DNA of 41,613 nt from a virus. Below are positions 9,001-41,613 of the stretch, piece by piece (position 1 is the first letter of the stretch; each line of letters starts with the position of its first letter). The stretch lies in the IMG/VR virus record IMGVR_UViG_3300049489_000709, positions 1-41,613 of that record; one strand, written 5' to 3'. The notes beneath the pieces are model-generated. The model saw only the letters and a list, made by a program, of their open reading frames with translations, was not told where the DNA came from and ran no database searches. Made by a program: the position numbers and the translations under genes.

Positions 9001-12000
9001 AAGCAGCAGGAGTACACGGCCGCCGCGGCCGACGCGGCCCGCACCGAGCGCGAACGCGCCGAGTACGGCAGCAAGCTGATGGCGGTGAACGCGCAGATCG
9101 CCAAGGCCGGCGACATCAAGATGAAGGCGATCGAGCTGCTGCGCCGATTCCCGATCGGCGACGGCGGGATCATGCGCCACAACGACGTCGAGGCGTTCGC
9201 CACGGTGATCGGCTATCGGGTCAAGCCCAGCAAGGCGGGCAACCCCTACGCCCTGTCCAAGATCTCCGTGGACTTCCTGCGCAACATCCCCGACGGGCAC
9301 ATCAACATCCCGCTGTCGCAGATCGAAAAGGCGCACGATCTACAGGGCGGCTCTTGGCGCTCGCCGGTCGACTACGACTTCGAGTACCGCGACCGCGATG
9401 CCGCTGCCGGCCGGCGCGAGGTGATGATCATCACCGGCAACATTCCGGTCGCCATGAACGAGACGGGCGGCTCCGGGGAGATCATCAGCTTTACCACGCG
9501 CGCGCCGCAAGATGGTCCGTCCACCGGCCTGTTGATGCCGCGCAGCTTCAACCCGACCAATCTGGCCAAGCAGGACTACTCCCTGCGCTATGCCCAGCAG
9601 ATCAGCGATCTGCTGCTCGCCGTGCAGCACGCCTTCGCCATGGACGGTGGGCGCGGCAGCGATGCCGACCGCATCAAGGGGGTGCGTGGGGGCAAGGAGG
9701 CGCCCGATCTCGGCAGCAACGAGCAGGAGCGCAAGCCGTACCTGTTCGAGGTGTTCTCGCGCGGGCGCGTGGTGCGGCTGCGCCCCAACACTTGGTCGCC
9801 CAACTTCACGCTGTCGATCGAGGCCGACCGCGGCAAGAAGTTCAAGAGGGACAAGGGCCTGCAAGCCATCGTCGGCGACCTGTCCATGCGGCGCGGCGCG
9901 CGCGACATGGAGGCGATGGTAAGGCCGGAGGATGTCGAGGCGCTGGTGCGCTACCTGCGGCAGCAGATGCCGCTCTACATCATCAACTCGAAGGCCGACT
10001 TCGCGCGGCAATTCGCGCCGGCCACTACCGCGCCCAACACCAAGCTGTCGGTGGCCCCGTCCGCGGGGAAGGGCACCAAGGCGGCCGACCTGAAGAAGGC
10101 GCTGGCGCCCATCGTCACGGGCTGGAAGGGTGGGCCGCGCATCCGCATCGCGCAAAGCGTGCAAGACGTCCCGTTCAAGGTGCCCAATAACACGCGCGGC
10201 GTGTTCTATCTCGGGCAGGTCTGGCTGGTGGCCGACAACATCGCGGACGCCAACATCGCGCAGTTCGTCATGCTGCACGAGGTTGCCGGGCACTACGGGC
10301 TGCGCGGCATCTTGGGCGACCGCCTCGACCAGTGGATGGAGCGCATCTACCGCGACAACGAGCGGGTGCGCACCGTCGCCGACAAGAAGATCGCCGCCTA
10401 CAAGCGTGCCGGGGTCGAGCTGTCGATCGCCGGAGCCGCCGAAGAGGCTCTGGCCGACATGGCCGGGCGAAACGAAACGGCCAACCTCAAGGGCTGGAAG
10501 ATGCTGGTCGCCGCCATCCGGCAGGCCCTGCGGCAGCTCGGGTTCACGCTGCGCCTGAACGACAGCGACATCCTGCTGTTGCTGGCCGAGGCCAAGCGCT
10601 ACGTCGAGAAAGGCGCGCCGCAGCCGCCCGCACAGGCGCCGGCCGGGGCGCCCGCCGCCAAGCTATCGCTGGGGAGCGATCTGGTCAGCCGGGCCATGCA
10701 GGAGATCTACGACAGCGTCTCCTCGGCCAAGCAATTCAACTGGCTCCACCGCAGGGTGGCCACGCAGTACCACAAGGCGCAGATCAACCCGCTGTTCCGC
10801 CCGGTGTTCCGCGCGGCGCAGGACTTCCTGCAAGACGTCGCCGGGATGGCGCACGCCTCGGCCGATGAGGCCGGCGAGGACATCCTGCCCCGCCTCGGCC
10901 GGGTGTCCGACGTGTTCAAGAACATCACCAAGACCAAGCAGATCGACAACGATCTGGCGGCGGCCGGCAAGGCCATTTGGGCGGCCACGCTGGGCGAGGT
11001 GCGCCCGAGCGATCAGGAGCTGCGGCAAGGGTTCTCGGTGACCGCCAAGGATGCGGCCGGCGTGATCGGCGTCATGACCGTGCCGGCGCTCACCGACAAG
11101 CAAGTGGACTACTACAACAACGTGCGCGCGGCGATCGACCTGTCGCTCGATCAGGTGGCGACCTCGGAAATGGTGCGGATGGTGCGCACCAAGAACTACC
11201 CGGGCCTGAACGTCGCCCTGTCCTACGCCAAGGATCACCCGGAGAGCGGCTTCGGCGCGCTCTACCAAGCGCTGCACGACTTGGCCGCCGACCATCGGCT
11301 GGCGGGCCGGATGGACGAGGAGGCCGACGTCAGCAAGACCATCGCCGAGCTGGAGAAGATGAACGATCGCATCGAACAGCTCAAGGCGCAGGGTTACGCG
11401 CCGCTGATGCGCTTCGGCCAGTACACGGTGACGGTCACGGAGGTGCGCAACGGACTAGCCCCGACCACGCTCTACTTCGGGATGTTCGAGTCGAAGCGTG
11501 ACGCGAACCGGATGCACCGCGACATGAAGGACCTGTATCCGAATGCCACGGTCACGCTTGGCACCATGGACGAGGAGAGCTGGAAGCTCTATCGCGGGCT
11601 GTCGCTCGATTCGCTGGAAGCGTTCGGCGCGGCCTCGGGCCTCGGTGCCGACAATATGTTTCAGGATTACCTGAAGCTGGCCGTGTCTTCGCGTTCGGCG
11701 ATGAAGCGGCTGATTCAACGCAAGGGCGTGCAGGGGTACGAAGAGGACCTGCGGCGCGTGCTCGCCGGGTTCATCACCTCGCAGGCCCGGCTGGCGGCGC
11801 GTAACTACCACTTCAAGGAAATGGTCGACGCGCACGAGCGCATCCCCAGCACTGCCGGGGACGTGCGCACCGAGTCGGCCCAGCTCATCGGCTACATCCA
11901 GAACCCGGTCGAGGAGGCGCAGGCGGTCCGCGGCCTGCTGTTCGTCAACTTCCTCGGCGGGTCGGTGGCGTCGGCGCTGACCAACATGACGCAGCCGATC

Positions 12001-13961: not shown

Positions 13962-14809
13962 GACGCCAGCTCCACGACCTTCTTCTTGTTGGTGGTGCTG
14001 CGCGCCGTGACCCGCTCGTAGCGCATGGCGACCGGCAGCTTGGGGATCGGGAACAGCTCAGATTCCGCGGCCTGCAACTTGGTGATCGCCCGGCGCTCGC
14101 AGAATGCCCGGATGGCCGCCTCTGTCTTCGCGTACTGCTCGCTCGCCAGCACGCCCAGCCGCTTGGTGAGCATGGCGTCCCGCAGCACCAGAGCCGCCCG
14201 GTCGGCGTTGTGGTCGATGACGCCAGACCGCATCGCCACGCCCATCCGTTCGAGCTGTTCGCGGTTCGACTCCGTGTACCACGCCCGCGCGAAAGCGGCC
14301 GCCATGGCGATCGTGATCAGCTTGCCGGACGCCCGGTTGACCGCCCGGAAGTGCCGCGCGTAGTCGATGCCGCCGCGATAGAACTCGTACCACTTGTTGG
14401 CGATCTCCGGCGGGACCATGTGCTTCGCCTGCGTGCCGGTGACCAAGAACTTGGCGAGCGAGGCTGTGACCGGGTCCGTCTCCCAGCCGACATAGTGCGC
14501 GACGTCCTTGTAGTCGCGCGACAGCCCGCTGTCGACCGCGACCACGTCCTCCGGCGACACGCCGCGGCTGACCATGATCAGGACCGTGCAGCCGGACTCG
14601 ACGATCGCCCACATCCGGTGCTGGCCGTCGATCAGGTGCCCGCCGGAGTCGAAGGCGATGCCTTGGTGCGTCGGCCGCCACAGGCCGGCCTTCATCTGCG
14701 CGGCGTAGTAGTCCACCCGGGCCTGTCGCACGGAACGGTTGCCTTCCATGGACTCCAGATACAAGGCCGCCGTCTTCGGGTCGATGTTCTCCCACTTGGA
14801 CGAGATCAT
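13958..14809 (-). CDS. ParB-like (ParB/Srx fold) phage protein
   Basis: The 283-residue protein starts at an ATG preceded by AGGAGG. Residues 55-69 carry GGHLIDGQHRMWAI, the hallmark of the ParB/sulfiredoxin-fold nuclease-like domain, after an N-terminal segment with the usual ParB-like spacing. The C-terminal two thirds are helical and unassigned. Many phages carry such proteins without ParA, and roles range from DNA binding to nuclease or nucleotide hydrolysis. It lies next to recT in an ATGA-coupled operon, suggesting DNA metabolism rather than segregation. Whether it recognises the parS-like site at 38722 cannot be told; no clear HTH is visible. Confidence 0.7.
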   Translation of the reverse strand: MISSKWENIDPKTAALYLESMEGNRSVRQARVDYYAAQMKAGLWRPTHQGIAFDSGGHLIDGQHRMWAIVESGCTVLIMVSRGVSPEDVVAVDSGLSRDYKDVAHYVGWETDPVTASLAKFLVTGTQAKHMVPPEIANKWYEFYRGGIDYARHFRAVNRASGKLITIAMAAAFARAWYTESNREQLERMGVAMRSGVIDHNADRAALVLRDAMLTKRLGVLASEQYAKTEAAIRAFCERRAITKLQAAESELFPIPKLPVAMRYERVTARSTTNKKKVVELAS

Positions 14810-15849
14810 GCGGCCTCCTGCATCTTGGTGCGCAGCGCCGCGGCATCGGCGCGCAGCGCGGCCTTGAGGTCGTCGGCGCAGGTCAGCCCGTTGATCAGGT
14901 CCGTGGCAACGTCGAGCGCGTCGACCGTCTTCGCGCCGGCCAGCGCTGCCTTGACGTAGTCGAACGACAGGCCGGCATCCTTGGCCGGCTCGGCCGGCTG
15001 CTCGGCCGGCGGCGTGGTTGCCGGCTGCTCGACCGGACGCGCCTTCAGCCGGGCCGTGGCGTTCCGGTACGCCTTCTCGGCGTCCTTGCGCTCGCCCTCC
15101 GGGAGCTTGCGCGCCAGCTCGACAGCGGCCGTCAGCTCGGCCTCGGTGGCGGCGGCGTCGAAGGCGGCCACCACCCGCTCGACCGTGGTGGTGGACTTCA
15201 GCCGGTCCAGAACCCGGTCGGACTTGGACGTCTTGGCCGGCTCCTGCACGACCGTGCCGGTCACCTCGATCTCCACGTCGGCCAGCTCCTCGACGCCGGC
15301 CATGCCGCGCAGGATGTCCGCCGCCGCGTCCCGGGCGGCGAACCAGAACGCCCGCCACGCGAGCTGGCGGTACGGGTAGAGCTGCCACGGGCCATCCTTC
15401 TCCCACAGCCGGGCGCGCTTGGCGTCCTCGATCGAGAAGGTCCGGGTCACCGGGACCCGGCCGCGGCGAGCGATGGTGCAGCTCGCAATCCCGGTCTGGC
15501 GGATCTCGTCGATGTCGCGCTCGTCGATCTGGCACCCCTTGTTCAGCAGCATCGCCTTGCCGGCGTCACCGTAGATGCCCGGCTTGCCGTTGATCACGGC
15601 GATGCACTGGATCGCCTGCAAGGGCTTCATTTCCAACTCGGCGCCCCACTGCATGGCGAGAAAGCAGTTCCCCGGGTTGCCCTGAAACGACTTGGGCACC
15701 ATGGTGGAGCTGGCCAGCATCCCGGCCAACTCCATGGCCTCGGCCAGCGTGGTCGGCGCGAAGCTGAAGGTCGTCGGCGCCGGCATCATCGCCGCCGCGC
15801 CCGGCACTGCCGTGGTCGGCAGGTTGGTCACTTCCGTGTGGTCGTTCAC
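14806..15849 (-). CDS. recT: RecT-family single-strand annealing recombinase
   Basis: The 347-residue protein starts at GTG 15849, chosen because GGAGG lies four bases upstream and the preceding gene ends in GTGA at the same place. The N-terminal half has the RecT signature blocks: PKSFQGNPGNCFLAMQWG, MKPLQAIQCIAVINGKPGIYGD and AWRAFWFAARDAAAD. The tail from about residue 200 is Ala/Glu/Lys-rich with a Pro-rich segment and probably flexible. RecT anneals complementary strands after resection by a partner exonuclease, here YqaJ, three genes upstream in the same operon. Together they form a phage homologous-recombination pair used in replication and repair. Confidence 0.92.
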   Translation of the reverse strand: MNDHTEVTNLPTTAVPGAAAMMPAPTTFSFAPTTLAEAMELAGMLASSTMVPKSFQGNPGNCFLAMQWGAELEMKPLQAIQCIAVINGKPGIYGDAGKAMLLNKGCQIDERDIDEIRQTGIASCTIARRGRVPVTRTFSIEDAKRARLWEKDGPWQLYPYRQLAWRAFWFAARDAAADILRGMAGVEELADVEIEVTGTVVQEPAKTSKSDRVLDRLKSTTTVERVVAAFDAAATEAELTAAVELARKLPEGERKDAEKAYRNATARLKARPVEQPATTPPAEQPAEPAKDAGLSFDYVKAALAGAKTVDALDVATDLINGLTCADDLKAALRADAAALRTKMQEAA

Positions 15850-16037
15850 TGGTCCTCCGTGATGGTGAAGCCGCGGGCCTTCGCCCACTCCGAAAGGGTG
15901 TCGTCAGAAAACACTGCGGCGGGTTCGAGGTTGTCCGCGATCCACTCGATGGCCGTAGCCAGCAAGGAATCGGGGTTGAAGATCGAGCGCGCGAAGGCGT
16001 CCTTCGCGTGAGTCCATTCCGGGTCGAGGCGCGGCAT
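15846..16037 (-). CDS. Hypothetical protein (63 aa) between recT and coiled-coil gene
   Basis: ATG at 16037 overlaps the stop of the upstream gene (TGATG) and the gene ends in a GTGA overlap with recT, so all three are coupled. The sequence starts MPRLDPEWTHAKDAFARSIF and ends SEWAKARGFTITEDQ, acidic with no membrane segment. No family recognised. Its position inside the exonuclease-annealase operon suggests a recombination accessory, by context only. Confidence 0.65.
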   Translation of the reverse strand: MPRLDPEWTHAKDAFARSIFNPDSLLATAIEWIADNLEPAAVFSDDTLSEWAKARGFTITEDQ

Positions 16038-16585
16038 CAGCTCTCCTCCTTGGGGGTCTTCGCCGTCAGGAGCTGGCGAAGCGCGGTCAGGGTGTACTCC
16101 CGTGCGGCGGCCGCCTCCTCCGAGAACTCCTCGAAGCCGGCCGGCTTGGTCGCCTCGACGTCGGCGATCACTTGCTTGATCCGCTCCGGCGTCTCGTTGA
16201 CCATCATGACCGCGATCGAGTACAGCTTGGCGATGCGGTCGCGGAAGCCCTTGACGCGCGCGTCGGCGACGGCCTTGCGCTGCTTCCGCGCGGCCTCCTT
16301 CTTGTCCTCCTCCGCCTTGATCACGGCGTCGAGCGGGGCCATCATGCCGGCGATCGCTTCCGCGGCCTCGGCGGCGCCGCCGTCGATCTCGCGCGCACGC
16401 TTGATCACGCTCTCCTTGAGCGACCGCCGCTCGGCCTCGACCCGCGCGAGGATATTGCGGTATGCGGCGCGCGTGCTGACCGCGGCCGCCATGCCCTTCG
16501 CGGTGGCGACGTCGATCCCCGCGTCGGCCGCATCCTTGACCGCCTCGGCTTGCACGCGGAACTTGTAGAATTCGCTGCTCATCAT
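16037..16585 (-). CDS. Coiled-coil protein (DUF1351-like position) in recombination operon
   Basis: The 182-residue protein starts at the first of two adjacent ATGs, behind AAGGGGGA. Residues about 45-130 are strongly charged and heptad-like (KESVIKRAREI, KAEEDKKEAARKQRK), predicting long helices. The start overlaps the yqaJ stop (ATGA). A coiled-coil protein of this size between exonuclease and annealase is common in phages, often DUF1351. I infer the resemblance from position and composition rather than a specific motif. Likely role: partner or scaffold of the recombination pair. Confidence 0.75.
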   Translation of the reverse strand: MMSSEFYKFRVQAEAVKDAADAGIDVATAKGMAAAVSTRAAYRNILARVEAERRSLKESVIKRAREIDGGAAEAAEAIAGMMAPLDAVIKAEEDKKEAARKQRKAVADARVKGFRDRIAKLYSIAVMMVNETPERIKQVIADVEATKPAGFEEFSEEAAAAREYTLTALRQLLTAKTPKEES

Positions 16586-17484
16586 TCCCCCTTCGGTTTG
16601 GTGATGCGGGCCTCGACATATTCGGTGTCGGCAACCGTGTAACCCTTCCGCGTGACCCGCTTCCGCGTCAGCTTGCCGCCGTTGTTCAGCTCCAGAACGG
16701 CGGCCTCCTTCATCTTGTCCAGCAAGTGCGCCTTCGCGGCCGACGCCACGCTCTCGTAGGCGTCCACCTTGCGCTTGGCCTCCAGCAGGACGTAGAACCA
16801 GTGCTCCGCGTCGGCATCGCCCGGGACGATCGTCCCGTCGGTGCCGGGGTAGACCCGCTGCAACACCTGTTGCGCCCGCGGCGCGTCCAGATCCAGCGGC
16901 GGCGGCACGCCCTTGAGCACCTGATAGAACCAGAAGTCGTGCGTGGCCTCGACAATCAGTTCCCGCCAGTCCTTGGACGACTCGATCTCGAACAGCCGCA
17001 GATCGTCGCCGCCGAAGTAGGCCGCCACCGTCCACACCGGATAGTCCTTGACCAGCATATAGGCGTGCGGCTGCGGCAAGTAGTAGTCGGGGATCTCGTC
17101 CGACCCCTCCTCCCCCCAATGCTTGGCGGCGCGCGAGCCGACGTTCTTGCACTCGACGCCGCGGTCCTCGCCGACCACGTCGCGGTCGATGTGGATGGTC
17201 AGCCATTCGTACTTGGGGTTGACCAAGGTCAAGTTCGAGCGCCGCAGCTTCACCTCGCGCCCCCACTTGCGCGTCATCTTGCTCGCCGCGAGCGCCGCGA
17301 TGCCGTCTTCCAGCACGTTGCCCGCCTCGACGGCGAAGTTCTCCGACAGGTCGGGCCTGTCCAGCGTGCCGCGCTTCTCGTGATAGAGTTCGAGAGCCGT
17401 CTTGTAGGGATTGAGGCCGAGGATCGTGGCCACGTCAGAGCCGCCGATCTTGCGTGCCTGCAATTGTTCCTGTGTAAGTGCCAT
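16582..17484 (-). CDS. YqaJ-family viral recombinase / exonuclease
   Basis: The 300-residue protein starts at ATG 17484 behind AAAGGA. RKIGGSDVATILGLNPYKTA is the classic N-terminal motif of the YqaJ (lambda exonuclease-like PD-(D/E)XK) family. It is followed by the conserved glutamate in FAVEAGNVLEDG and by DRDVVGEDRGVECKN, where the D...EXK catalytic residues lie. Length is usual for the family. It degrades one strand of linear duplex DNA to give 3' single strands for RecT. The C-terminal 90 residues are helical and charged, typical of YqaJ proteins. Confidence 0.9.
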   Translation of the reverse strand: MALTQEQLQARKIGGSDVATILGLNPYKTALELYHEKRGTLDRPDLSENFAVEAGNVLEDGIAALAASKMTRKWGREVKLRRSNLTLVNPKYEWLTIHIDRDVVGEDRGVECKNVGSRAAKHWGEEGSDEIPDYYLPQPHAYMLVKDYPVWTVAAYFGGDDLRLFEIESSKDWRELIVEATHDFWFYQVLKGVPPPLDLDAPRAQQVLQRVYPGTDGTIVPGDADAEHWFYVLLEAKRKVDAYESVASAAKAHLLDKMKEAAVLELNNGGKLTRKRVTRKGYTVADTEYVEARITKPKGE

Positions 17485-17498
17485 TCTCGATCCTTTCG

Positions 17499-17570
17499 TT
17501 AGTGCCAGCGCCAGCTTATGGCGATCAGCACAATGAGCAGGAGCAGCCAGAACCACGTCTGCGTTCTCAT
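17499..17570 (-). CDS. Micro-ORF: 23-residue membrane peptide
   Basis: ATG overlaps the stop of the preceding gene (ATGA) and the ORF ends 14 bases before yqaJ. The peptide MRTQTWFWLLLLIVLIAISW plus three residues is almost entirely one transmembrane helix with a basic N terminus. Such tiny peptides are often missed. The coupling and the clean hydrophobic pattern support translation, but a peptide this short could be chance. Confidence 0.4.
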   Translation of the reverse strand: MRTQTWFWLLLLIVLIAISWRWH

Positions 17571-17758
17571 CGCGCCACCCCGGGCGGAGCCGGAAAATCG
17601 ACCTCGACGCGCGCACGCTCGACGTCGGTGAGCCTCGTCTTGGCCTTGCGCAGCTCGGCGCCATAGTGCGCGACCGCGCTTCGGTAGTACGCGACGTCCC
17701 ACTGCGCCTTGCGCAAGCGGTGTCGCCAAACCAGCAACCGGATGAATTGCGTCATCAT
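17567..17758 (-). CDS. Basic small protein (63 aa), first gene of the recombination operon
   Basis: Two adjacent ATGs (17758 and 17755) follow AGAGG; the second has the better spacing. The protein MMTQFIRLLVWRHRLRKAQW continues with helical, Arg-rich sequence and ends FPAPPGVAR. It is the first gene downstream of the presumed leftward promoter in the 17760-17883 control region. No family recognised. A short amphipathic N terminus is possible, but there is no clear membrane span. Confidence 0.6.
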   Translation of the reverse strand: MMTQFIRLLVWRHRLRKAQWDVAYYRSAVAHYGAELRKAKTRLTDVERARVEVDFPAPPGVAR

Positions 17759-33650: not shown

Positions 33651-34427
33651 ATGACTGATCCACTAGGCAAGACTACGGCCAAAGACGTCCCGGCCGGAAA
33701 GCGCGCAAAGCCCGGAATTGATTGGGAAACCATCGAACGGGAATACCGCGCCGGCATCCTCTCCCTGCGCGACATTGCCGCCAAGCATGGGCTATCGGAA
33801 ACCGCTATCCGCAAGCGGGCCAAGAAGCACGAGTGGGAACGGGATCTGACCCAGCGGGTGCATGAGAGGGTTCGCACGGCCCTAGTTCGCAGTGTCGAGG
33901 CCAGAGGGGATAATGCGCACCAAACCAAGACCGAGCGGGAGATCGTCGAGCAGGCCGCCGCCACCGTCGTGGAGGTAGTACGCCAGCACCGGGAGGACAT
34001 CCGGAGGACGGCCGCACTGGTGGCCCGCCTCACCGAGCAACTGTCGGATGCCGCCGACTGCCGGGAGCGGTTGCGGGACCTGATCGAGGAGGAGACGGCC
34101 AAGGATCGGTCGCCCAACCGGCGGGTGGCCATGCTGCGAGCAGTGGCAATCCCAGCCCATGCCGGGACGGCGAAGGACCTATCCATCGCCATGAAGAATC
34201 TGGTCGGGCTGGAGCGGCAAGCCTTCAACGTGCCGGCCATAGATCCGGATCCGCCGCCGGCCGGGGACGACAAGGATGCCGGGGACGACCCGGGCTTGAT
34301 GGCGGTGCTGACCCGGCTATCGACGCTGACCGGGGCGCCCATCGTGACCGAGGGCGGCGAGCAGGCGGTCGAGCAGACGCCAGAGGACGACGGGGGGGGC
34401 GATGGCGGCGAAGCGGCGCAAGCGTAA
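33651..34427 (+). CDS. terS: Terminase small subunit (258 aa)
   Basis: It opens the packaging operon and overlaps the large subunit by 26 bases. The N-terminal third carries an HTH: IDWETIEREYRAGILSLRDI AAKHGLSETAIRKRAKKHEW, a common small-terminase DNA-recognition domain. A central helical region (residues 75-150, IVEQAAATVVEVVRQHREDI) would form the oligomerisation core, and an acidic tail follows. It recognises the packaging site and assembles with TerL. The upstream 129-bp gap is AT-rich (TTTATATT, ATATAAG) and probably holds its promoter. Confidence 0.85.
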   Translation: MTDPLGKTTAKDVPAGKRAKPGIDWETIEREYRAGILSLRDIAAKHGLSETAIRKRAKKHEWERDLTQRVHERVRTALVRSVEARGDNAHQTKTEREIVEQAAATVVEVVRQHREDIRRTAALVARLTEQLSDAADCRERLRDLIEEETAKDRSPNRRVAMLRAVAIPAHAGTAKDLSIAMKNLVGLERQAFNVPAIDPDPPPAGDDKDAGDDPGLMAVLTRLSTLTGAPIVTEGGEQAVEQTPEDDGGGDGGEAAQA

Positions 34428-36087
34428 CCGTCACCTCGAAGCCCTGCTACAGGTCCAGTGCCGGGCCTGCCCATTCGACAAGATCGGCGGGGTCTACCAT
34501 TACGTCATCGAGCAATACGGGGACTACGGCCGGGCGATGCTGGGGCGGGTGGATCGGTTCTACCTGCTGACGGTCCTGCTGCACCGGCCTGACGCCATCC
34601 ATCCGTGGCTCTATGCGCGCTGCCGGGAAGTCGAGGCGGCCACGGACGGCCATCTGGACCTGTGGGCGCGGGAACACTACAAGTCGACCATCATCACCTT
34701 CGCCGGGGCGGTGCAGGAGATCATCCGGGACCCCGAGATCACGATCGGCATCTTCAGCCACACCAAGCCGACGGCCAAGAAGTTCCTGTTGCAGCTCAAG
34801 AGCGAGTTCGAGAGCAACGAAGACCTGAAGCGGGTGTACCCGGACGTGTTCTACGCCAACCCGCGGCGCGAGTCGCCGGCATGGTCCGAGGAGAAGGGGA
34901 TCACCGTTCGCCGGGCTGGGAACCCGCGCGAGGCGACCGTCGAGGCGCACGGGCTGGTGGACGGCCAGCCGACCGGCAGCCACTTCCGCCTGCGCATCTA
35001 TGATGACGTGGTGACGCTGGAGAGTGTGAGCACGCCCGAGCAGGTACAGAAGACCACGGCCGCCCACGACATGAGCGACAACCTCGGCGCGCGGGGACCG
35101 GACGGTCGCAAGCGGGCGTGGCGCGTGGGCACCCGCTACAAGTTCGGGGACTCGTACCAGACCATGATCGACCGGAGGACCGTGAAGGTCCGCCTGCATC
35201 CGGCCACGGAGGACGGCACGCCGAAGGGCAAGCCGGTGTTTCTGTCGCAGGAGGCGCTGGACACCATCCGCCGTGACCAGCCGAGCGCCATCTTCGCGGC
35301 CCAACAGCTCATGAACCCGGCCGCGGGCGTCGAGGCGATGTTCCAGCAGGGCTGGCTCCGGTTCGCCGACATCCGGCCCGCGACCCTGACCGTCTACATC
35401 ATGTGCGACCCGGCATCGAGCCGGAAGAAGGGCCGGGACAACACCGCGATCATGGTCGTCGGCATCGACGCGACCCGCAACAAGTACCTGCTGGACGGCT
35501 ACAGCCACAAGATGGGCCTGTCCGAGCGCTGGACCAAGCTCAAACAGCTCTATGGGACGTGGAGCAGCGCGCCCGGGGTCCAGTTCGTGAAGGTCGGCTA
35601 CGAGCGCTATGGGCTGCTGGATGCGCTGGAGCACTTCGAGGAGCGGATGCTGCTGGAGCGAGTGGGCTTCGAGATCGTGGAGTTGGCGTGGCCCAGCGAA
35701 GGCGGGAACGCGAAGTACGACCGGATCCAGCGGCTGGAACCTGACTTCCGGGGCGGGCGGTTCTACCTCGCCGCCGAGCCGTTCCGCGTGGTGAAGGACG
35801 CCGACGGGACCGAGCGGCAGGAGCGGATCGACGAGACGCGCAACCAGAGGATGGTGCGCGAGGCCGGACAGGCGTATCGTGTCTTCCAGCCGACCGTGCG
35901 CATGGACCACGAGGGCAATCTGTACAGCCTGAACAAGGCGTTGCTGGACCAGTACCTGCGCTATCCCTACGTCAATCACGACGACAATCTGGACTGCCTG
36001 TCCCGGATCTACGACATGGACCCCGAGCCGCCGATCATCGTGAACCCGAGCGTGCTGGAACCGGAGGTTTACACCGATGGCGCCTGA
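34402..36087 (+). CDS. terL: Terminase large subunit (561 aa)
   Basis: The ATPase half has a Walker A variant AREHYKST (residues 89-96), the coupling-type segment IGIFSHTKPTAKKFL, and a Walker B IYDDVV (about 199-204). The nuclease half has the first catalytic Asp in YIMCDPASSRKKG (D336) and a late HDDNLDCL motif. It powers DNA translocation into the procapsid and cuts the concatemer. The start lies in the terS 3' end; the length is standard. The ATG at 34402 is preceded by GGGGGGGC, a G-rich but unusual RBS. Confidence 0.93.
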   Translation: MAAKRRKRNRHLEALLQVQCRACPFDKIGGVYHYVIEQYGDYGRAMLGRVDRFYLLTVLLHRPDAIHPWLYARCREVEAATDGHLDLWAREHYKSTIITFAGAVQEIIRDPEITIGIFSHTKPTAKKFLLQLKSEFESNEDLKRVYPDVFYANPRRESPAWSEEKGITVRRAGNPREATVEAHGLVDGQPTGSHFRLRIYDDVVTLESVSTPEQVQKTTAAHDMSDNLGARGPDGRKRAWRVGTRYKFGDSYQTMIDRRTVKVRLHPATEDGTPKGKPVFLSQEALDTIRRDQPSAIFAAQQLMNPAAGVEAMFQQGWLRFADIRPATLTVYIMCDPASSRKKGRDNTAIMVVGIDATRNKYLLDGYSHKMGLSERWTKLKQLYGTWSSAPGVQFVKVGYERYGLLDALEHFEERMLLERVGFEIVELAWPSEGGNAKYDRIQRLEPDFRGGRFYLAAEPFRVVKDADGTERQERIDETRNQRMVREAGQAYRVFQPTVRMDHEGNLYSLNKALLDQYLRYPYVNHDDNLDCLSRIYDMDPEPPIIVNPSVLEPEVYTDGA

Positions 36088-36271
36088 CAACCGACACGCG
36101 CGGCTGGCGCGGCGCTGCGGCTACTGGAGCGCAGCGCGGCGCATGGCCAAGAGCGGCTATCCGCTGGAGACGGCGCTGCGGCGCCTGCTGGGCGTGCGGC
36201 CGATCCCGGTGCTGACCGAGCGCGCGCCGCTGCTGATCCGCTGGTGGTTCCGATGGAAGATGCGGGCTTGA
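36077..36271 (+). CDS. Small basic protein (64 aa) after terL
   Basis: Overlaps the end of terL by 11 bases, with GGAGG upstream at 36063. The translation MAPDNRHARLARRCGYWSAA is Arg-rich with a Trp-containing C terminus (LLIRWWFRWKMRA). No family recognised. Codon third positions are G/C-rich, supporting it as a real gene. Confidence 0.5.
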   Translation: MAPDNRHARLARRCGYWSAARRMAKSGYPLETALRRLLGVRPIPVLTERAPLLIRWWFRWKMRA

Positions 36272-36759
36272 CGCTGGGCGTTGATGCCGTCATCATGGCG
36301 GGAGCCATCCTGCTGTGGGTGGGTGGCCTGTGGTTGGTCCTGATCCGCATGGGGGTGAACGATGGCGACGAAGAAGGTCAAGGCAGTGGTGGCGACCAAG
36401 CCGCCGAAGGCAGTGGTGGCCACGAAGAAGGTGGCGCCGCCGAAGAAGGTCGTGGCGCCGCAGGATGGGATGGCGGGCAGCTCGAACAAGCTGCCGCGGC
36501 AGGCGCTGCACGCACGCGGTCGGAACCGCGGGATGGGGAAGTGCTGACGGAGGGGTCCATGGCGCTCAAGGGGAAGCGGAAGACGGTGGTGTTGCGGGTG
36601 TACCGCGCGGTGGACGGCTGGCGCTGGCGTCTGATCGCGGGGAACGGGAAGATCGTGGCGGACTCCGGCGAGGCTTACGTCAAGCGGGCGACGGCCGTGG
36701 CGCGGGCGAAGGCGCTGGAGTCGCTGGTCGCGGCGGCGCGGCTGGAGGTGGACGAGTGA
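36253..36759 (+). CDS. Composite ORF: membrane segment + Gly/Glu linker + YegP-like domain (168 aa)
   Basis: Frame 1 is open from ATG 36253. Residues 1-35 contain one membrane span (AVIMAGAILLWVGGLWLVLI). Residues 37-100 are Gly/Glu/Gln/Ala-rich with atypical wobble bases. The C terminus is a DUF1508/YegP-like domain that has its own start (next entry). The middle overlaps a better-supported gene in frame 2. It is uncertain whether the full-length product is made in quantity or is just readthrough of a membrane-peptide gene that lacks its stop. Confidence 0.45.
   Translation: MEDAGLTLGVDAVIMAGAILLWVGGLWLVLIRMGVNDGDEEGQGSGGDQAAEGSGGHEEGGAAEEGRGAAGWDGGQLEQAAAAGAARTRSEPRDGEVLTEGSMALKGKRKTVVLRVYRAVDGWRWRLIAGNGKIVADSGEAYVKRATAVARAKALESLVAAARLEVDE
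36362..36547 (+). CDS. Lys/Val/Pro-rich histone-like small protein (61 aa), nested
   Basis: Frame 2 within the composite ORF. GGGGGTG lies four bases before ATG 36362. The protein is built from repeats of the type VVATKKV/APPKKVV, followed by DGMAGSSNKLPRQALHARGR. Nearly every codon ends in G or C, whereas the overlapping frame does not, so this is the coding frame. The composition suggests a flexible DNA- or protein-binding tail. No family recognised. Confidence 0.6.
   Translation: MATKKVKAVVATKPPKAVVATKKVAPPKKVVAPQDGMAGSSNKLPRQALHARGRNRGMGKC
36559..36759 (+). CDS. YegP/DUF1508-like small protein (66 aa), internal start
   Basis: ATG 36559 is preceded by GGAGGGG with three bases between. 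The product MALKGKRKTVVLRVYRAVDG WRWRLIAGNGKIVADSGEAY VKRATAVARAKALE has the strand-turn-strand pattern W-x-W-R-L-I-A-x-N-G-K-I-V-A-x-S-x-E typical of the DUF1508/YegP domain. This is usually a stand-alone protein of similar size, so the internal start is probably the natural one. Role unknown. Confidence 0.7.
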   Translation: MALKGKRKTVVLRVYRAVDGWRWRLIAGNGKIVADSGEAYVKRATAVARAKALESLVAAARLEVDE

Positions 36760-36947
36760 AGCCGTGGATGCGTTGGGTGCAGTTCGAGATCCTGCTGGGG
36801 GTGGCCGGGCGGTATCTCGGCTTCCAGCTTGGGATCAGCGACTACGCCCGGGCCTACACGCTGAACTTGGTGGCGGGTCGGTGGCGACGAGGCTGGGTGC
36901 TGGCGGACGCGCAGAACGGCTGGTCGCCGCGGCGCGCGTGGTCATGA
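36756..36947 (+). CDS. Small hypothetical protein (63 aa)
   Basis: Starts at GTG 36756, overlapping the preceding stop (GTGA). MKPWMRWVQFEILLGVAGRY LGFQLGISDYARAYTLNLVA predicts an amphipathic or weakly hydrophobic N terminus and a C terminus ending WSPRRAWS. No family recognised. Confidence 0.55.
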   Translation: MKPWMRWVQFEILLGVAGRYLGFQLGISDYARAYTLNLVAGRWRRGWVLADAQNGWSPRRAWS

Positions 36948-37258
36948 GCTGGCCGAATCCGGCGGCTCTGGTCTGCCGCGCCGACGTCAGGCGCGGCCTG
37001 CACAGCTACCGCTGCCAGAACGAGGCGAAGAAGGACGGCTACTGCCTCGTCCATCACCCGGAGCGGCAGCGGCAGCGGCAAGCCAAGCGGGAGGCCAAGA
37101 TCGAAGCGTGGCGGGCGTCGTGCGCCGCGGAGGCGCGGACCAAGCTCTACGCCGAGCGCTACGCCTTCCTGCGGGAGCAGGGGGCGCGGCAGTTCAACAT
37201 CACGCCCGAGCAGTACGACGAGGGGGTCGAGCGGGCGATGCGAGAGGAGGGGCGATGA
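36944..37258 (+). CDS. Cys/His-bearing helical protein (104 aa)
   Basis: ATGA overlap. C-x9-C...C-x2-HH type residues (LVCRADVRRGLHSYRCQNEA KKDGYCLVHHPER) could bind one zinc. A long basic helix follows (RQRQAKREAKIEAWRASCAA), and the C terminus is RQFNITPEQYDEGVERAMRE. Zinc knuckle plus helix suggests nucleic-acid or protein binding. No family recognised. Confidence 0.65.
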   Translation: MSWPNPAALVCRADVRRGLHSYRCQNEAKKDGYCLVHHPERQRQRQAKREAKIEAWRASCAAEARTKLYAERYAFLREQGARQFNITPEQYDEGVERAMREEGR

Positions 37259-37461
37259 ACATTCTGGCGACGTTCGGGTTGCCGCCGGCCGTGATCCGCA
37301 TGAAGGCGCGGCAGGCCGAGCGGGAGGAGCGGGTCATCCTGCGCGAGCGACTGACGTTCATGGAGAGCGTGGCCGCCCAGCACCGCGCGGACATGGAGGC
37401 CATGATGAAGCGGGTCCGGGTGGACGAGGTGGTGGGTCCGCCCACGGAGATCCTGCAATGA
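37255..37461 (+). CDS. Helical small protein (68 aa)
   Basis: ATGA overlap with AGGAGG just upstream. MNILATFGLPPAVIRMKARQ continues as a charged helix (AEREERVILRERLTFMESVA AQHRADMEAMMKRVRVDE). Likely coiled coil. Unknown role. Confidence 0.6.
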   Translation: MNILATFGLPPAVIRMKARQAEREERVILRERLTFMESVAAQHRADMEAMMKRVRVDEVVGPPTEILQ

Positions 37462-37868
37462 ACCGGCGCGGGTTCCTGAAGTCCATCGCGGCGGCGCCGC
37501 TGGTGGCGTTCGTGCCGGGGGTCCTGTGGATCCCCGACCAGAAGCTGGCAGTGCCGGAGCTGAAGACCGCGCTGGCCCCGCTGGCCGAGGCGATCGGGGA
37601 GGAGGCCGGGATCTACGGCTTCGCGGTCCCGGCGCACTGGTGGGCCTTCGAGCGCTACCGCCAGCAGATCTGGTGGGACGCCCACTACCACTTCCCGGCC
37701 CGCAAGCCGGTGGTCATCATCACCGGGGACGCGGCCGGCCTGAAGGCCCTGCCGTTCCGCTTCGCGTGGCACGGGGCCGGGCTGCCCCGGGACGGCGGAC
37801 AGGAGCTGCCGGTCGTGCAGACGTGGGCCAACGGGGAGGAGCTGGAACCCCAGCTATGGCTGGCATGA
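37458..37868 (+). CDS. Protein with Tat-type N terminus (136 aa)
   Basis: MNRRGFLKSIAAAPLVAFVPG has the twin-arginine R-R-x-F-L-K motif, a hydrophobic stretch and a possible cleavage region, all features of a Tat signal. The remaining domain has VPAHWWAFERYRQQIWWDAH YHFPARKPVVIITGDAAG and LKALPFRFAWHGAG, rich in aromatic residues. If exported, it would fold in the cytoplasm first and act in the periplasm. ATGA overlaps both neighbours. No family recognised; an accidental resemblance is possible because the signal is short. Confidence 0.65.
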   Translation: MNRRGFLKSIAAAPLVAFVPGVLWIPDQKLAVPELKTALAPLAEAIGEEAGIYGFAVPAHWWAFERYRQQIWWDAHYHFPARKPVVIITGDAAGLKALPFRFAWHGAGLPRDGGQELPVVQTWANGEELEPQLWLA

Positions 37869-38026
37869 CCAAGCGCGGCGATATGCGCTGGGACGAAACC
37901 GAGCTGGCCGAGTACGCGGCGCGCCGGCAGCGCTGGAAGAAGGCCAGCCAGATCGACGAACCGCAGCAGGAAGAACAGGAGGGGGAATGGCCGGTTGGAT
38001 TGGAGTCGACCTCGACGGCACCCTAG
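37865..38026 (+). CDS. Small protein, MRW-EL-AEYxARR type (53 aa)
   Basis: ATG overlaps the previous stop (ATGA). MTKRGDMRWDETELAEYAAR RQRWKKASQIDEPQQEEQEG resembles the short N-terminal peptide of some phage nuclease genes, but the ORF ends after 53 residues. It overlaps the HAD gene by 40 bases in another frame. A nearby ATG at 37856 would lengthen it by three residues. Confidence 0.5.
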   Translation: MTKRGDMRWDETELAEYAARRQRWKKASQIDEPQQEEQEGEWPVGLESTSTAP

Positions 38027-38301
38027 CCCGTTACGAGGGCTGGCTGGGTCCGGAGATCATCGGGGAGCCGGTCGCCCCCATGCTGGAGCTGGTCCGGCAG
38101 TGGCTGGACTGCGGGCGGGAGGTGCGCATCTTCACCGCCCGGGCCAGCGTGCCGGCGCAGATCCCGCCGATCGAGGAGTGGTGCCTGCGCCACCTCGGCC
38201 GGGTGCTGCCGGTGACCAACGTCAAGGACTTCGGCATGATCGAGCTGTGGGACGACCGCTGCGTCCGGGTCATCACCAACAAGGGGAGGCCCTGCTGTTG
38301 A
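37987..38301 (+). CDS. HAD-superfamily phosphatase (104 aa)
   Basis: AGGAGGGGG precedes ATG 37987. GVDLDGTLA (residues 6-14) is HAD motif I with the nucleophilic and acid/base Asp pair (D8, D10). VRIFTARAS supplies the motif II Thr, and VTNVKDFGMIELWDDRC the Lys and acidic residues of motifs III and IV. The protein is a minimal cap-less HAD, as in phage 5'-nucleotidase or polynucleotide 3'-phosphatase-like enzymes. Substrate unknown; nucleotides or DNA ends are plausible in a phage. Confidence 0.85.
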   Translation: MAGWIGVDLDGTLARYEGWLGPEIIGEPVAPMLELVRQWLDCGREVRIFTARASVPAQIPPIEEWCLRHLGRVLPVTNVKDFGMIELWDDRCVRVITNKGRPCC

Positions 38302-38501
38302 GCGCCCCCGCCGAAAGCGACCAAGACGTGGCCGACCGCCTGCGCGCCCTGCGCCAGAAGATGGGGGTGTCACAGCAGGAGTTCTGCCGCCAGAGCGGGG
38401 CTTCGCTCTCCACCTTGCAACGCTGGGAGCGGGGGGATAAAGTGACCCCTGCGGCCAAGTGGCTGATCGAGCTGATGGAGCTGCGATGGACCAAAAGGTG
38501 A
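38298..38501 (+). CDS. XRE-family HTH protein with TTG start (67 aa)
   Basis: TTG 38298 overlaps the preceding TGA (TTGA) and lies behind GGGGAGG, making it the likely start. DVADRLRALRQKMGVSQQEF CRQSGASLSTLQRWERGDKV is a complete XRE helix-turn-helix. It sits in a structural operon, unusual for a repressor, so it may act as a late regulator or adaptor. Confidence 0.75.
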   Translation: MSAPAESDQDVADRLRALRQKMGVSQQEFCRQSGASLSTLQRWERGDKVTPAAKWLIELMELRWTKR

Positions 38502-38668
38502 AAAGCAGCGTGCGCCTGTGGTCGACCGAGGTCGCCATGGCCGACGCCGCGGACATCGCCGACACGGGGCAGCAAGGGGTGGTGGCGCTGGTCGAGCGCG
38601 CGCCGTACCCGGCCGCCTACGAATTCTCCAACGGGAGGAAGTTCCGTGACGGCCCCAAGCCAAGCTGA
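38486..38668 (+). CDS. Small hypothetical protein (60 aa)
   Basis: Start chosen at ATG 38486 (GGAG five bases upstream), overlapping the XRE gene by 16 bases. MDQKVKSSVRLWSTEVAMAD continues AADIADTGQQGVVALVERAP and ends KFRDGPKPS. No family recognised. Confidence 0.55.
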   Translation: MDQKVKSSVRLWSTEVAMADAADIADTGQQGVVALVERAPYPAAYEFSNGRKFRDGPKPS

Positions 38669-38813
38669 CAACTTCGAGTCCGTGGATATGTTCAGGACCG
38701 CGGCAGCGTTCCCGGCCCCGGTGTTTCACGTGAAACAGCCCGGCGTCGTGGTGCCGTTCCCCAACCCCCTCGGCTTCGACTACATCGCCGGCCTGATCAG
38801 CGAGAACCCGTGA
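38646..38813 (+). CDS. Small hypothetical protein (55 aa) carrying the parS sequence
   Basis: GTG 38646 is preceded by GGGAGGAA. MTAPSQADNFESVDMFRTAA, then FPAPVFHVKQPGVVVPFPNP. The codons for VFHVKQ are GTG TTT CAC GTG AAA CAG; TTT and AAA are against the G/C-ending preference seen all around, consistent with selection on the DNA sequence rather than the peptide. The stop overlaps the next GTG (GTGA). Function unknown. Confidence 0.55.
   Translation: MTAPSQADNFESVDMFRTAAAFPAPVFHVKQPGVVVPFPNPLGFDYIAGLISENP
38722..38737. promoter_or_regulatory. parS: Perfect chromosomal-type parS site
   Basis: TGTTTCACGTGAAACA is an exact match to the 16-bp palindromic ParB-binding consensus known from bacterial chromosomes. 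A chance occurrence in a 42-kb GC-rich sequence is very unlikely. It lies between terminase and portal genes. No second copy was noticed in the window and no ParA gene is visible. Confidence 0.85.
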
Positions 38814-38974
38814 ACCCCGCCCTGCGCGAGGCCACCTCCGGCCACGAGGAATACGACGCCCTGCCGGCGGCGGTGCGCATGGCCTACTCGGTCACCGAAT
38901 GGCTCTGGCTGACCGACCGGCAGAAGGCCGAGCTGGTGCGCGGCGAGTGCGAACCCGAGCACTACGTCGACTGA
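38810..38974 (+). CDS. Small acidic hypothetical protein (54 aa)
   Basis: Starts at GTG 38810, overlapping the stop of the previous gene. MNPALREATSGHEEYDALPA AVRMAYSVTEWLWLTDRQKA ELVRGECEPEHYVD. The segment VTEWLWLTDRQKAELV is typical of short phage proteins downstream of portal-proximal gene clusters. Function unknown. Confidence 0.6.
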   Translation: MNPALREATSGHEEYDALPAAVRMAYSVTEWLWLTDRQKAELVRGECEPEHYVD

Positions 38975-39138
38975 TGAAGCTCAAGCTGACCTCCATCATG
39001 GCGGCCGTCGGCGCCCTGTTCGGGCCGGTCCCGCCGCCGCGCCTCACCGCCAAGCAGCGGCGCTCCTACAAGCACCCGCCGCCCGGGCAGGGCGAGCGCG
39101 AGAAGGCCCGGCGCGTACGCCAGCGCCAGAAGACATGA
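38974..39138 (+). CDS. Small basic protein (54 aa)
   Basis: TGATG overlap with the preceding gene. MKLKLTSIMAAVGALFGPVP has a hydrophobic stretch; the rest is basic and Pro-rich (TAKQRRSYKHPPPGQGEREK). May be a short membrane-associated peptide. No family recognised. Confidence 0.5.
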   Translation: MKLKLTSIMAAVGALFGPVPPPRLTAKQRRSYKHPPPGQGEREKARRVRQRQKT

Positions 39139-39485
39139 ACCTCATCATCGCCACCGACCCCGGCTTCGAGCTGGACGCGCGCGCCCTGTCGGAGCCGGTC
39201 GGCCAGCTCTTGGCCAGCACCTACCCCGGCTACCGCTGGCGGGTCGAACCCCATCCGCACCCCACCAAGCCGTTCGTGGACATCCGCTTGGAGGCCGGCC
39301 ATGCTATGTTCGGGGCCACGATCAAGCCGTGGCAGTTCTACTCCGCGTCGAGCTACCGCGCCAAGATCGTCGAGATCGGCGGCGAGCTGCTGGAACGCTT
39401 CCACCTGAACCGGCGCGCCTTCGACGAAACCGAGTTCGTGGCCAGAAAAAAGAACTTCGCCGGCATCATCCTCCCGGACCTGTAA
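39135..39485 (+). CDS. Hypothetical protein upstream of portal (116 aa)
   Basis: ATGA overlap with the previous gene; it ends at the base before the portal start. MNLIIATDPGFELDARALSE, YPGYRWRVEPHPHPTKPFVD IRLEAGHAMFGATIKPWQFY and GGELLERFHLNRRAFDETEF describe a compact alpha/beta protein. Conserved-looking but unassigned; its position suggests a head-assembly accessory role. Confidence 0.7.
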   Translation: MNLIIATDPGFELDARALSEPVGQLLASTYPGYRWRVEPHPHPTKPFVDIRLEAGHAMFGATIKPWQFYSASSYRAKIVEIGGELLERFHLNRRAFDETEFVARKKNFAGIILPDL

Positions 39486-41613
39486 ATGCTGACCTCCGCC
39501 CCGCTCGACAATCAGGACCAGACGAACGGGGCAGTCGTCACTGCCGGCGCGGTCGATTGGCTGGCGCTGTCGCGGGCCGCGTGGCGGTCCTCGACCAACT
39601 ACTTCGACACCGCGGTGCGCAAGACGGTGATCGACAACCTGCGCCAGTTCCAAGGCCAGTTCCCGCAAGGCTCGAAGTACCTCTCCGACGCCTACCGCGC
39701 GCGCTCCCGCTTCTTCCGGCCGAAAACCCGGTCGGTGGTGCGCAAGAACGAAGCCATCGCGGCCGAGGCGTTCTTCTCCTCGGAGGACGTGATTTCGATC
39801 AAGGCGCAGGACGAGGACGACCCGATCCAGCGCGCCTCGGCAGAGGTCAACAAGGCCCTGCTCCAGTACCGGCTCACCAAGAAGGGCAAGGTCGGCATCC
39901 CGTGGTTCTCGCTGGTCATGGGCGCCTATCAGGACGCCCAAGTGCAGGGCATCGTCTGCTCGTACCAGTATTGGGAGAAGAACGACGCCAAGGGCATCGA
40001 CCGCCCGCAGTGCGCCCTGAAGCCGATCGAGAACATCCGCTTCGACCCGTCCGCAGATTGGTGCGACCCGGTCAACACCTCGCCGTACTTCATCGAAATG
40101 ATCCCGATGTACGCCAAGGACGTGAAGGCGCGCGCGACCATCGTGGATCCGGTCACCCGGCAGCCGCGCTGGAAGAAGATGAGCGACAGCGACCTGCTCA
40201 AGGCGTCGGCGCACAACTCGGAGGTGGTGCGCCTCCAGCGCGAGCACGGGCGGATCGATCCGCGCACCGCGTCCAACGCGATCACCGACTTCACGATCGT
40301 GTGGGTCCACCGGAACATCATCGAGGTCGACGGCCGCGATTACGTCTGGCACACCCTCGCCGACATCGAAATGCTCGACGAGGCGCGCCCCATCGAGAGC
40401 GTGTGGTTCCACGGGCGCCGCCCCTACGTCATCGGCTTCTCCGTGCTGGAGACGCACCGGCCCTATCCCCCCGGCACCGTGGGGCTGGTGGCGCCCGTGC
40501 AGGCCGAGCTGAACGAGAACGCGAACCAACGTCTGGACAACGTCAAGTTCGCCATGAACAAGCGCTACTTCGTGAAGCGCACCGCGGCCGTGGACCTGCG
40601 CAGCCTCCAGCGCAACGTGCCGTCGTCGACCACGATGATGAACGACCCCGACAAGGACGTGCGGATCGTCGAGACGAACGACGTCACCGGCTCCGCGTAT
40701 CAGGAGCAGGACCGGCTGGCGCTCGACTTCGACGACCTCGCCGGGTCCTTCTCGCAGTCGTCGGTGCAGAGCAACCGCAAGCTCAACGAAACCGTCGGCG
40801 GCATGAACATCCTGACCAAGGATGCCTCGCAGGTCACCGGCTACCAACTGCGCACCTTCGCCGAGACGTGGGTCGAACCCGTGCTCGAACAGCTCCTGAT
40901 GCTGGAGCAGCGCTACGAAACCGACATGGTCGTGCTCGCGCTGGCCGGGAAGAAGGCCGACATCTACCAACGCTTCGGCGTCGACCAGATCACCGACGAG
41001 CTGCTGATGCAGGAGCTGACGGTGAACGTGAACGTCGGCATCGGCGCCACCAACCCGCACGACCAGCTCCAGAACTTCATCAACGGGATGACGGCGCTCC
41101 AGAGCCTGCTGGCCTCCGGGGTGTTCGACCGCTACGGCGCCGACATCAAGGAGATCATCAAGGAGGTCTTCTCCAAGCTGGGCTACAAGGACGGCAAGCG
41201 GTTCTTCCCGGACGAGACGGACCCGCGGATCTCCGCCATGCAGGCCACGATTCAGGAACTCCAGAAGGCGATCGAGGCGAAGATGCCGCCCGAGGTCATC
41301 GCCGCCACGGTCAAGAAGCTCGAAGCGCAGTCGAAGAAGGAGCAGCAGGCGGCGGTCAAGCTCGGCGTCGAGGCCATGTACTCGGCCATCCAGACCGCCG
41401 AGGTCATTTCCGCGGTGCCCCAAGTGGCCCCGGTCGGCGACAAGGTCATGCAGGCGTCCGGCTACCAGCCGCCGCAACCGGCCGGCGTCGACCCCAACCT
41501 GCCGATCCCCGGCGGCCCGGCCGCGGGCCTCATGGTCGAGCCGGTGGCCAACCGCCGGACGGGGATCTCGTTCCAGCCCGGCGCACCGGGCGCGGCGGAC
41601 GCGGGCGACACCT
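39486..41613 (+). CDS. Portal (head-tail connector) protein, 3' end outside window
   Basis: Open from ATG 39486 to the window edge (709 full codons). Features typical of long podoviral portals: an N-terminal LSRAAWRSSTNYFDTAVRKT VIDNLRQFQGQFP, the wing segment VRKNEAAIAAEAFFSSEDVI, FTIVWVHRNIIEVDG, then PGTVGLVAPVQAELNENANQ RLDNVKFAMNKRYFVKR before the stem. A late long helix follows (ATIQELQKAIEAKMPPEVIA), and the end is Pro/Gly-rich. It forms the dodecameric ring for DNA entry and tail attachment. Assignment rests on this pattern plus position after terminase. Confidence 0.85.
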   Translation, partial: MLTSAPLDNQDQTNGAVVTAGAVDWLALSRAAWRSSTNYFDTAVRKTVIDNLRQFQGQFPQGSKYLSDAYRARSRFFRPKTRSVVRKNEAIAAEAFFSSEDVISIKAQDEDDPIQRASAEVNKALLQYRLTKKGKVGIPWFSLVMGAYQDAQVQGIVCSYQYWEKNDAKGIDRPQCALKPIENIRFDPSADWCDPVNTSPYFIEMIPMYAKDVKARATIVDPVTRQPRWKKMSDSDLLKASAHNSEVVRLQREHGRIDPRTASNAITDFTIVWVHRNIIEVDGRDYVWHTLADIEMLDEARPIESVWFHGRRPYVIGFSVLETHRPYPPGTVGLVAPVQAELNENANQRLDNVKFAMNKRYFVKRTAAVDLRSLQRNVPSSTTMMNDPDKDVRIVETNDVTGSAYQEQDRLALDFDDLAGSFSQSSVQSNRKLNETVGGMNILTKDASQVTGYQLRTFAETWVEPVLEQLLMLEQRYETDMVVLALAGKKADIYQRFGVDQITDELLMQELTVNVNVGIGATNPHDQLQNFINGMTALQSLLASGVFDRYGADIKEIIKEVFSKLGYKDGKRFFPDETDPRISAMQATIQELQKAIEAKMPPEVIAATVKKLEAQSKKEQQAAVKLGVEAMYSAIQTAEVISAVPQVAPVGDKVMQASGYQPPQPAGVDPNLPIPGGPAAGLMVEPVANRRTGISFQPGAPGAADAGDT

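Follow-up and report, generated by a model that had tools for sequence, protein, structure and literature searches.

The window, the whole stretch of DNA that was analyzed, covers positions 1 to 41,613 of the virus record IMGVR_UViG_3300049489_000709. The record is a linear 41.6-kb viral fragment, shorter than its named relatives (50–62 kb), so genes missing from it could lie outside. The features around the site of interest are the following:

33651–34427, plus strand, terminase small subunit (phrog_1206, E 4e-51)
34402–36087, plus strand, terminase large subunit, terL (phrog_38, E 2e-45)
38299–38501, plus strand, small XRE-type helix-turn-helix protein (PF13560, E 7e-9)
38646–38813, plus strand, 55-aa ORF enclosing parS, with a GTG start and overlapping the ORFs on both sides
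38722–38737, no strand, parS, the chromosomal ParB consensus palindrome, exact match (consensus from PMC5450999 and PMC7022226)
38810–38974, plus strand, conserved 54-aa protein (orf54) just downstream, with homologues in relatives
39486–41613, plus strand, portal/head-tail connector (phrog_332, E 6e-16, plus relatives), running off the record

The parS entry, TGTTTCACGTGAAACA, is a perfect 16-bp palindrome and matches the 16-bp consensus of chromosomal-type parS, TGTTNCACGTGAAACA (PMC7022226, PMC5450999), at 16 of 16 positions with no mismatch, as the original prediction had claimed. The identical 16-mer is bound by Burkholderia ParBc1, and changes are tolerated only at positions 1/16 and 5/12 (PMC5450999). 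Markov models of order 0–4 built from the window give 1.6e-7 to 1.6e-6 expected exact copies. Furthermore, a scan of the window for additional sites, which had been suggested together with the prediction, returned this copy as the sole match with three or fewer mismatches, and shuffles yield 0.06 such matches. Chromosomal-type sites lie near oriC/parAB, whereas the window site is surrounded by TerS, TerL and portal, with no ParB_N. Its predicted location in a packaging region is thus borne out, with terL on one side and the portal gene on the other, the latter starting ~750 bp downstream of parS.

Within the 55-aa ORF the site is read as ...PVFHVKQP..., and the claim that it forces codons rare in this genome agrees with the codon use in ten clear genes of the window, where Phe is encoded by TTT in 5% of cases and Lys by AAA in 7%. 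The ORF has no PHROG match and no homologue among relatives; since this ORFan has no detectable homologue, a conserved protein as the cause of the 16-mer was rejected. A hairpin or intrinsic terminator was likewise rejected as the reason for the palindrome, because no terminator-like site was found in 36050–39600, the fold z-score is only −1.7, and palindromes with the same core and equal composition are rare. A promoter-like CTGACA-16-TATGTT at 38665..38692 (plus strand), which is a consensus match only, ends 29 bp before parS.

Elsewhere in the record, 268–13380 at the edge codes for a polyvalent protein of 4370 aa whose domains are of DarB-like antirestriction, helicase and InPase-like type, and a pair consisting of a RecT-like annealing protein and a RecE-like exonuclease lies on the minus strand at 14806–15888 and 16582–17664. 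A small gene with a match of polynucleotide-kinase type shows, over part of its length (38101–38271), 73–76% DNA identity to three large Rhizobium phages, perhaps through exchange between unrelated phages.

Could the phage itself encode a reader of this site? Neither ParB_N (PF02195) nor a tyrosine integrase (PF00589) was matched at E≤1 anywhere in the 41.6-kb record, itself a fragment, and a phage-borne ParB in the record was therefore rejected. The XRE-type protein ~220 bp upstream of parS is the only phage DNA-binding candidate nearby. With ParB missing from the record, the site is likely read by the ParB of the host, and the original prediction is supported on this point. The same pattern extends to other parS-bearing viral records. 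ParB models match 3 of 49 (weakly) and 1 of 50, so that ~96% of the 99 have no ParB match, although many of these contigs are fragments and absence is not proven contig by contig. Among the 50 large records (49 with exact parS, plus the portal relative L122), ParA was found in one and a tyrosine integrase in three. Judging by the large records, a canonical ParB is unlikely in most parS phages. Phage-plasmids of the P1/N15 type encode both ParA and ParB; here PF02195 finds none in the window, and elsewhere the counts are 4/99 for ParB and 1/50 for ParA. The parS loci have TerL or portal homologues in common, but no shared regulator could be recognized in their largest ORF clusters.

We then consider the window's own phage family. 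Portal relatives are found in viral contigs, in Vibrio and Escherichia phages, and in prophage-like loci of Aromatoleum, Pseudothauera, Pseudomethylobacillus, Polaromonas and others. The consensus site occurs in only 2 of about 85 portal relatives, L122 and L293 (14-bp core exact; ~1.05 Mb from 83 relatives scanned), and the reversed control palindrome has no match in the same ~1.05 Mb. In L122, parS ends 14 bp before the small-terminase ATG, and in L293 it is enclosed by a small ORF, 2.5 kb upstream of the portal gene. In L128, a 66% relative, the 55-aa ORF is missing, and there is only a near-site with two mismatches, TGATCCACGTGGAACG, which lies elsewhere between terL and portal, at a stop codon. 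In L235–L239, the 3' end of the orf54 homologue encodes a terminal VSRET through the parS-like TGTTTCACGGGAAACA or GGTTTCACGGGAAACA, with codons that are rare for a G+C-rich phage and common to two subclades. According to published binding data, a change at position 3 should abolish binding by Burkholderia ParBc1, and changes at positions 7/10 are partly tolerated in some species (PMC5450999), so these near-sites may or may not work. Matches to GTTCCACGGGAAAC in L242 and L245 were not counted, since they fall within the portal coding sequence, where they are consistent with the peptide FHGK. Three isolated phages that are portal relatives (Vibrio 1.232.O, Vibrio 431E45.1 and E. coli Bas95) have no parS, and it is absent from the closest relative by TerL.

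The original prediction had named conservation of the 16-mer in relatives as the check on itself, and here it did not hold: the sequence differs in L128, and nearly all of the about 85 relatives are without parS. Its interpretation as a whole thus stands in part, for the exact parS, the packaging block and the lack of ParB in the record, and falls short on conservation in close relatives. On family evidence alone, this self-imposed comparison included, the case for the window site would be weak. The idea is saved by the strong enrichment of exact parS in ParB-less phages, its match to the host, and an exact-or-absent pattern upstream of terL in another clade.

A motif scan of IMG/VR found exact TGTTTCACGTGAAACA in at least 119 contigs and the C5/G12 variant TGTTCCACGTGGAACA in at least 120, compared with one contig for the reversed palindrome and five for a permuted palindrome keeping CACGTG. 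Similarly, among 50,697 named phage records, 286 have the exact 16-mer, 58 have TGTTCCACGTGGAACA and none has the reversed control; many of the 286 are near copies and do not amount to 286 independent events. Because the N-padded 30-mer query used for this search reports exact 16-base matches at E=8, it is the control count, not the E-value, that carries meaning. Exact parS is strongly over-represented in viruses, and the window phage is not unique in having it.

Several phages carry the site in unusual numbers or forms. The densest case seen is bajarodino virus 6 (L443, PQ006149.1), a 5.9-kb filamentous virus with six exact copies (635, 662, 1414, 2857, 4096 and 5628), of which five are intergenic in the annotation. 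Upstream of a second TerL group (TerL 82–88% identical), arrays of 3–5 exact copies resemble chromosomal parS clusters:

L044, parS at 10535, 11013, 11144, 11298 and 11447
L017, parS array within 2657–3444
L053, parS at 240, 682 and 946

Both canonical variants stand in tandem, 24 bp apart, upstream of terL in L096 (310–325 and 334–349), and likewise in L386, L423 and L424. In a related subclade, L196, L198 (CTTTTCACGTGAAAAG) and L215 (CCTTTCACGTGAAATC) have parS-like palindromes with changed outer bases 150–200 bp before terL, perhaps a variant suited to another ParB. Around parS, upstream of terL, GGGGCCCC/GGGTCCC motifs are seen repeatedly, as are palindromes of the form TTGCCTAAT-ATTAGGCA (L027, L042, L100, L118 and others); these may be signals for regulation or packaging. 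In Gordonia phage Woes (L439, 71012–71041), parS centers a 30-bp perfect palindrome, AGGGCAGTGTTTCACGTGAAACACTGCCCT, which is possibly also a terminator hairpin.

The site often lies near the terminase genes. Among loci with TerL of one broad family (L096 being in both sets), exact parS lies ≤600 bp upstream of TerL in 16 of 36 (permutation mean 3.6, maximum 10; 2000 permutations), and TGTTCCACGTGGAACA does so in 8 of 18 (mean 1.4, maximum 7; 2000 permutations). If only ORFs of 150 aa or longer are counted, the one closest to parS is TerL (phrog_38) in 17 of 117 cases, compared with 2 of 115 for the farthest ORF. In a marine TerL clade, parS is found 30–150 bp before terL. When 70 loci were instead collected through TerL similarity, independently of the motif, the best site in the 300 bp upstream had no mismatch in seven and one mismatch in one; no sites with 2–3 mismatches were seen upstream in these 70, the rest being at background. 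On the TerL tree, parS was gained or lost at least six times. This exact-or-absent pattern, together with the repeated turnover, fits what would be expected of an easily gained site under selection. The isolated SAR11 phage HTVC027P (L437) has CGTTTCACGTGAAACA at 16412–16427, in an intergenic gap (16208–16498) ~630 bp from the small-terminase gene. Since parS sits elsewhere in many phages, often between genes, the packaging region is one favored place and not a rule, as the following placements show:

DSS3P8, parS in the intergenic gap 831–949
Gordonia phage Woes, parS in the intergenic gap 70950–71062
Arthrobacter phage Nubia, intergenic parS between polA and purA
Vibrio phi 3, parS between A1 and A2, in the terminal repeat
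Listeria P100, parS over the start of gp159
Microbacterium phages, parS inside a DNA-binding-protein gene

Does the phage site match the host? The names leading the list of 286 records are Listeria, Microbacterium, Arthrobacter, Gordonia, Bacillus and Lactobacillus. Escherichia and Klebsiella are outside its ten commonest names, and enterobacteria, to our knowledge, have no chromosomal ParABS. The variant TGTTCCACGTGGAACA is commonest in Pseudomonas phages (17 of the 58 named records), and Pseudomonas chromosomes use this same variant (PMC5450999). Judged from these names and variants, hosts of parS phages appear mostly to have ParB, phages of ParB-less hosts appear rarely to carry parS, and the parS variant seems to follow the host. 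One exception is a group of Klebsiella jumbo phages (RaK2, K64-1 and relatives) that carry TGTTCCACGTGGAACA in a baseplate wedge gene. As for the window phage, all seven of the genomes holding its portal relatives carry 1–3 chromosomal-type parS each (within one mismatch of the consensus), which implies ParB and makes a host reader plausible.

Several other explanations of the site have to be weighed. Host ParB might read it for transcription, its clamp silencing or blocking in a KorB-like manner and delaying terL and portal expression. The close spacing to terL in the marine clade would suit this, as would promoter-like matches in 14 of the 24 parS regions examined (4.7 expected) and the one just ahead of parS in the window. 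However, a fixed promoter–parS geometry was sought and not found, as spacing and order vary, and some sites are inside genes, 1–4 kb from terL, or distant from late genes in other phages; we regard this explanation as rather unlikely. It is improbable that the site serves as a packaging aid, with ParB/SMC near the terminase genes organizing the concatemer or marking the packaging start. The preference for TerL as the nearest ORF and the positions near the small-terminase gene in L122 and HTVC027P are what such a role would predict, but many phages have the site elsewhere (before purA in Nubia, in the terminal repeat of Vibrio phi 3), and filamentous phages, which have no terminase, carry up to six copies. 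Little credence can be given to a decoy, in which replicated phage copies would outnumber the host sites and draw ParB, together with SMC, off the chromosome, upsetting the host cell cycle. Virulent phages and small high-copy phages do carry sites, and the checked host genomes have only 1–3, yet most phages have a single site, a lytic phage has no obvious need of host disruption, and such an effect may be a by-product of any other reading.

An alternative reader is a protein of the phage itself, such as the XRE-type protein at 38299–38501 or TerS, which could use the palindrome as its operator, the likeness to parS being incidental. The small helix-turn-helix protein upstream is in favor of this, but all 16 bases are common to unrelated phages with different genes, the host-typical C5/G12 variant included, and palindromes with the same core are rare, which makes an operator very improbable indeed. 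Finally, the 16-mer of the window might be a product of chance or hitch-hiking, functionless here even if parS matters in other phages. Because its own family is mostly without the site and the exact position is not conserved, parS could be neutral in the window phage alone; it also lies inside an ORFan, and the windows had been screened for oddities. On the other hand, about 1e-6 copies are expected, rare codons are used, and L122, L128 and L235–L239 have consensus or near-sites in the same packaging block, so we consider chance doubtful.

The explanation that we favor, with slightly better than an even chance of being right, is that the window holds a true chromosomal-type parS, which selection maintains for host ParB and which would let the DNA of a ParB-less phage engage the host ParABS/SMC. 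ParB dimers are loaded at parS and clamp shut when CTP binds; they slide along the DNA, interact with ParA and load SMC. Furthermore, Lin and Grossman reportedly found in 1998 that an unstable plasmid carrying parS can be stabilized by chromosomal Spo0J/Soj. It is on this established behavior of the ParB clamp and on plasmid stabilization by a bare parS that our commitment to loading of host ParB rests. Host ParB likely binds and loads at parS in phages at large and, with slightly less confidence, at the window parS.

In the proposed mechanism, host ParB dimers would load at the 16-mer on phage DNA, close into CTP clamps and spread by sliding along the neighboring terL–portal DNA. The sliding clamps would build a partition complex on the phage genome and couple the non-integrated phage DNA to the host ParA/SMC machinery. 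The most likely benefit would be that phage DNA is placed on the nucleoid and passed to both daughters with no par genes of its own. Here we infer the binding and spreading of ParB on the window phage, and the benefit would be the least certain part. The parS-bearing Listeria P100 and phi29-like Bacillus phages belong to groups known as strictly virulent, and because sharing DNA is no obvious need of such phages, pure daughter-cell partition is disfavored. More generally, there is an even chance that this is a convergent strategy, in which dsDNA tailed phages, gokushoviruses/microviruses and filamentous inoviruses would independently gain the exact parS variant of the host, so that host ParB-CTP clamps, and then ParA and SMC, would act on viral DNA, the site being wired to the packaging module in some tailed phages.

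How does this compare with known systems? The phage sites have the same 16-bp palindrome as the chromosomal ParABS centromeres of Bacillus subtilis, Burkholderia chromosome 1 and Pseudomonas, occur like them singly or in small clusters, and include both canonical variants, but they lie away from oriC/parAB, often beside terminase genes, in genomes that encode no ParB. KorB of plasmid RK2 is a ParB-family repressor, a clamp that regulates promoters at a distance, although it is plasmid-encoded and has a different operator. Test plasmids stabilized by chromosomal Spo0J/Soj reportedly show that parS by itself can suffice for host-driven partition of a replicon that lacks ParB; those plasmids are artificial, whereas here the replicon is a natural viral genome. 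ParABS phage-plasmids (P1, N15 and the cyanophage Mic1, PMC7156551) also have a partition site on phage DNA, but they encode their own ParA and ParB and have their own, different parS, whereas here the site is that of the host chromosome and the genes are missing. The Staphylococcus phage Lacachita genus (PMC10286716), with an incomplete partition set and presumed help from the host, is the inverse case, having parB without parA where the phages described here have the DNA site only. In the open-access papers searched we found no description of a host-type parS on ParB-less phages; the original prediction likewise knew of no well-described phage system using one in this position.

As such, parS is textbook knowledge. 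If phages do borrow the host machinery in this way, the bacterial centromere would be a shared resource into which viruses, including virulent and very small par-less phages, plug with 16 bases. Phage biology would then be tied to how bacteria segregate their chromosomes and load SMC, and the parS variant would serve as a new sequence clue to phage hosts.
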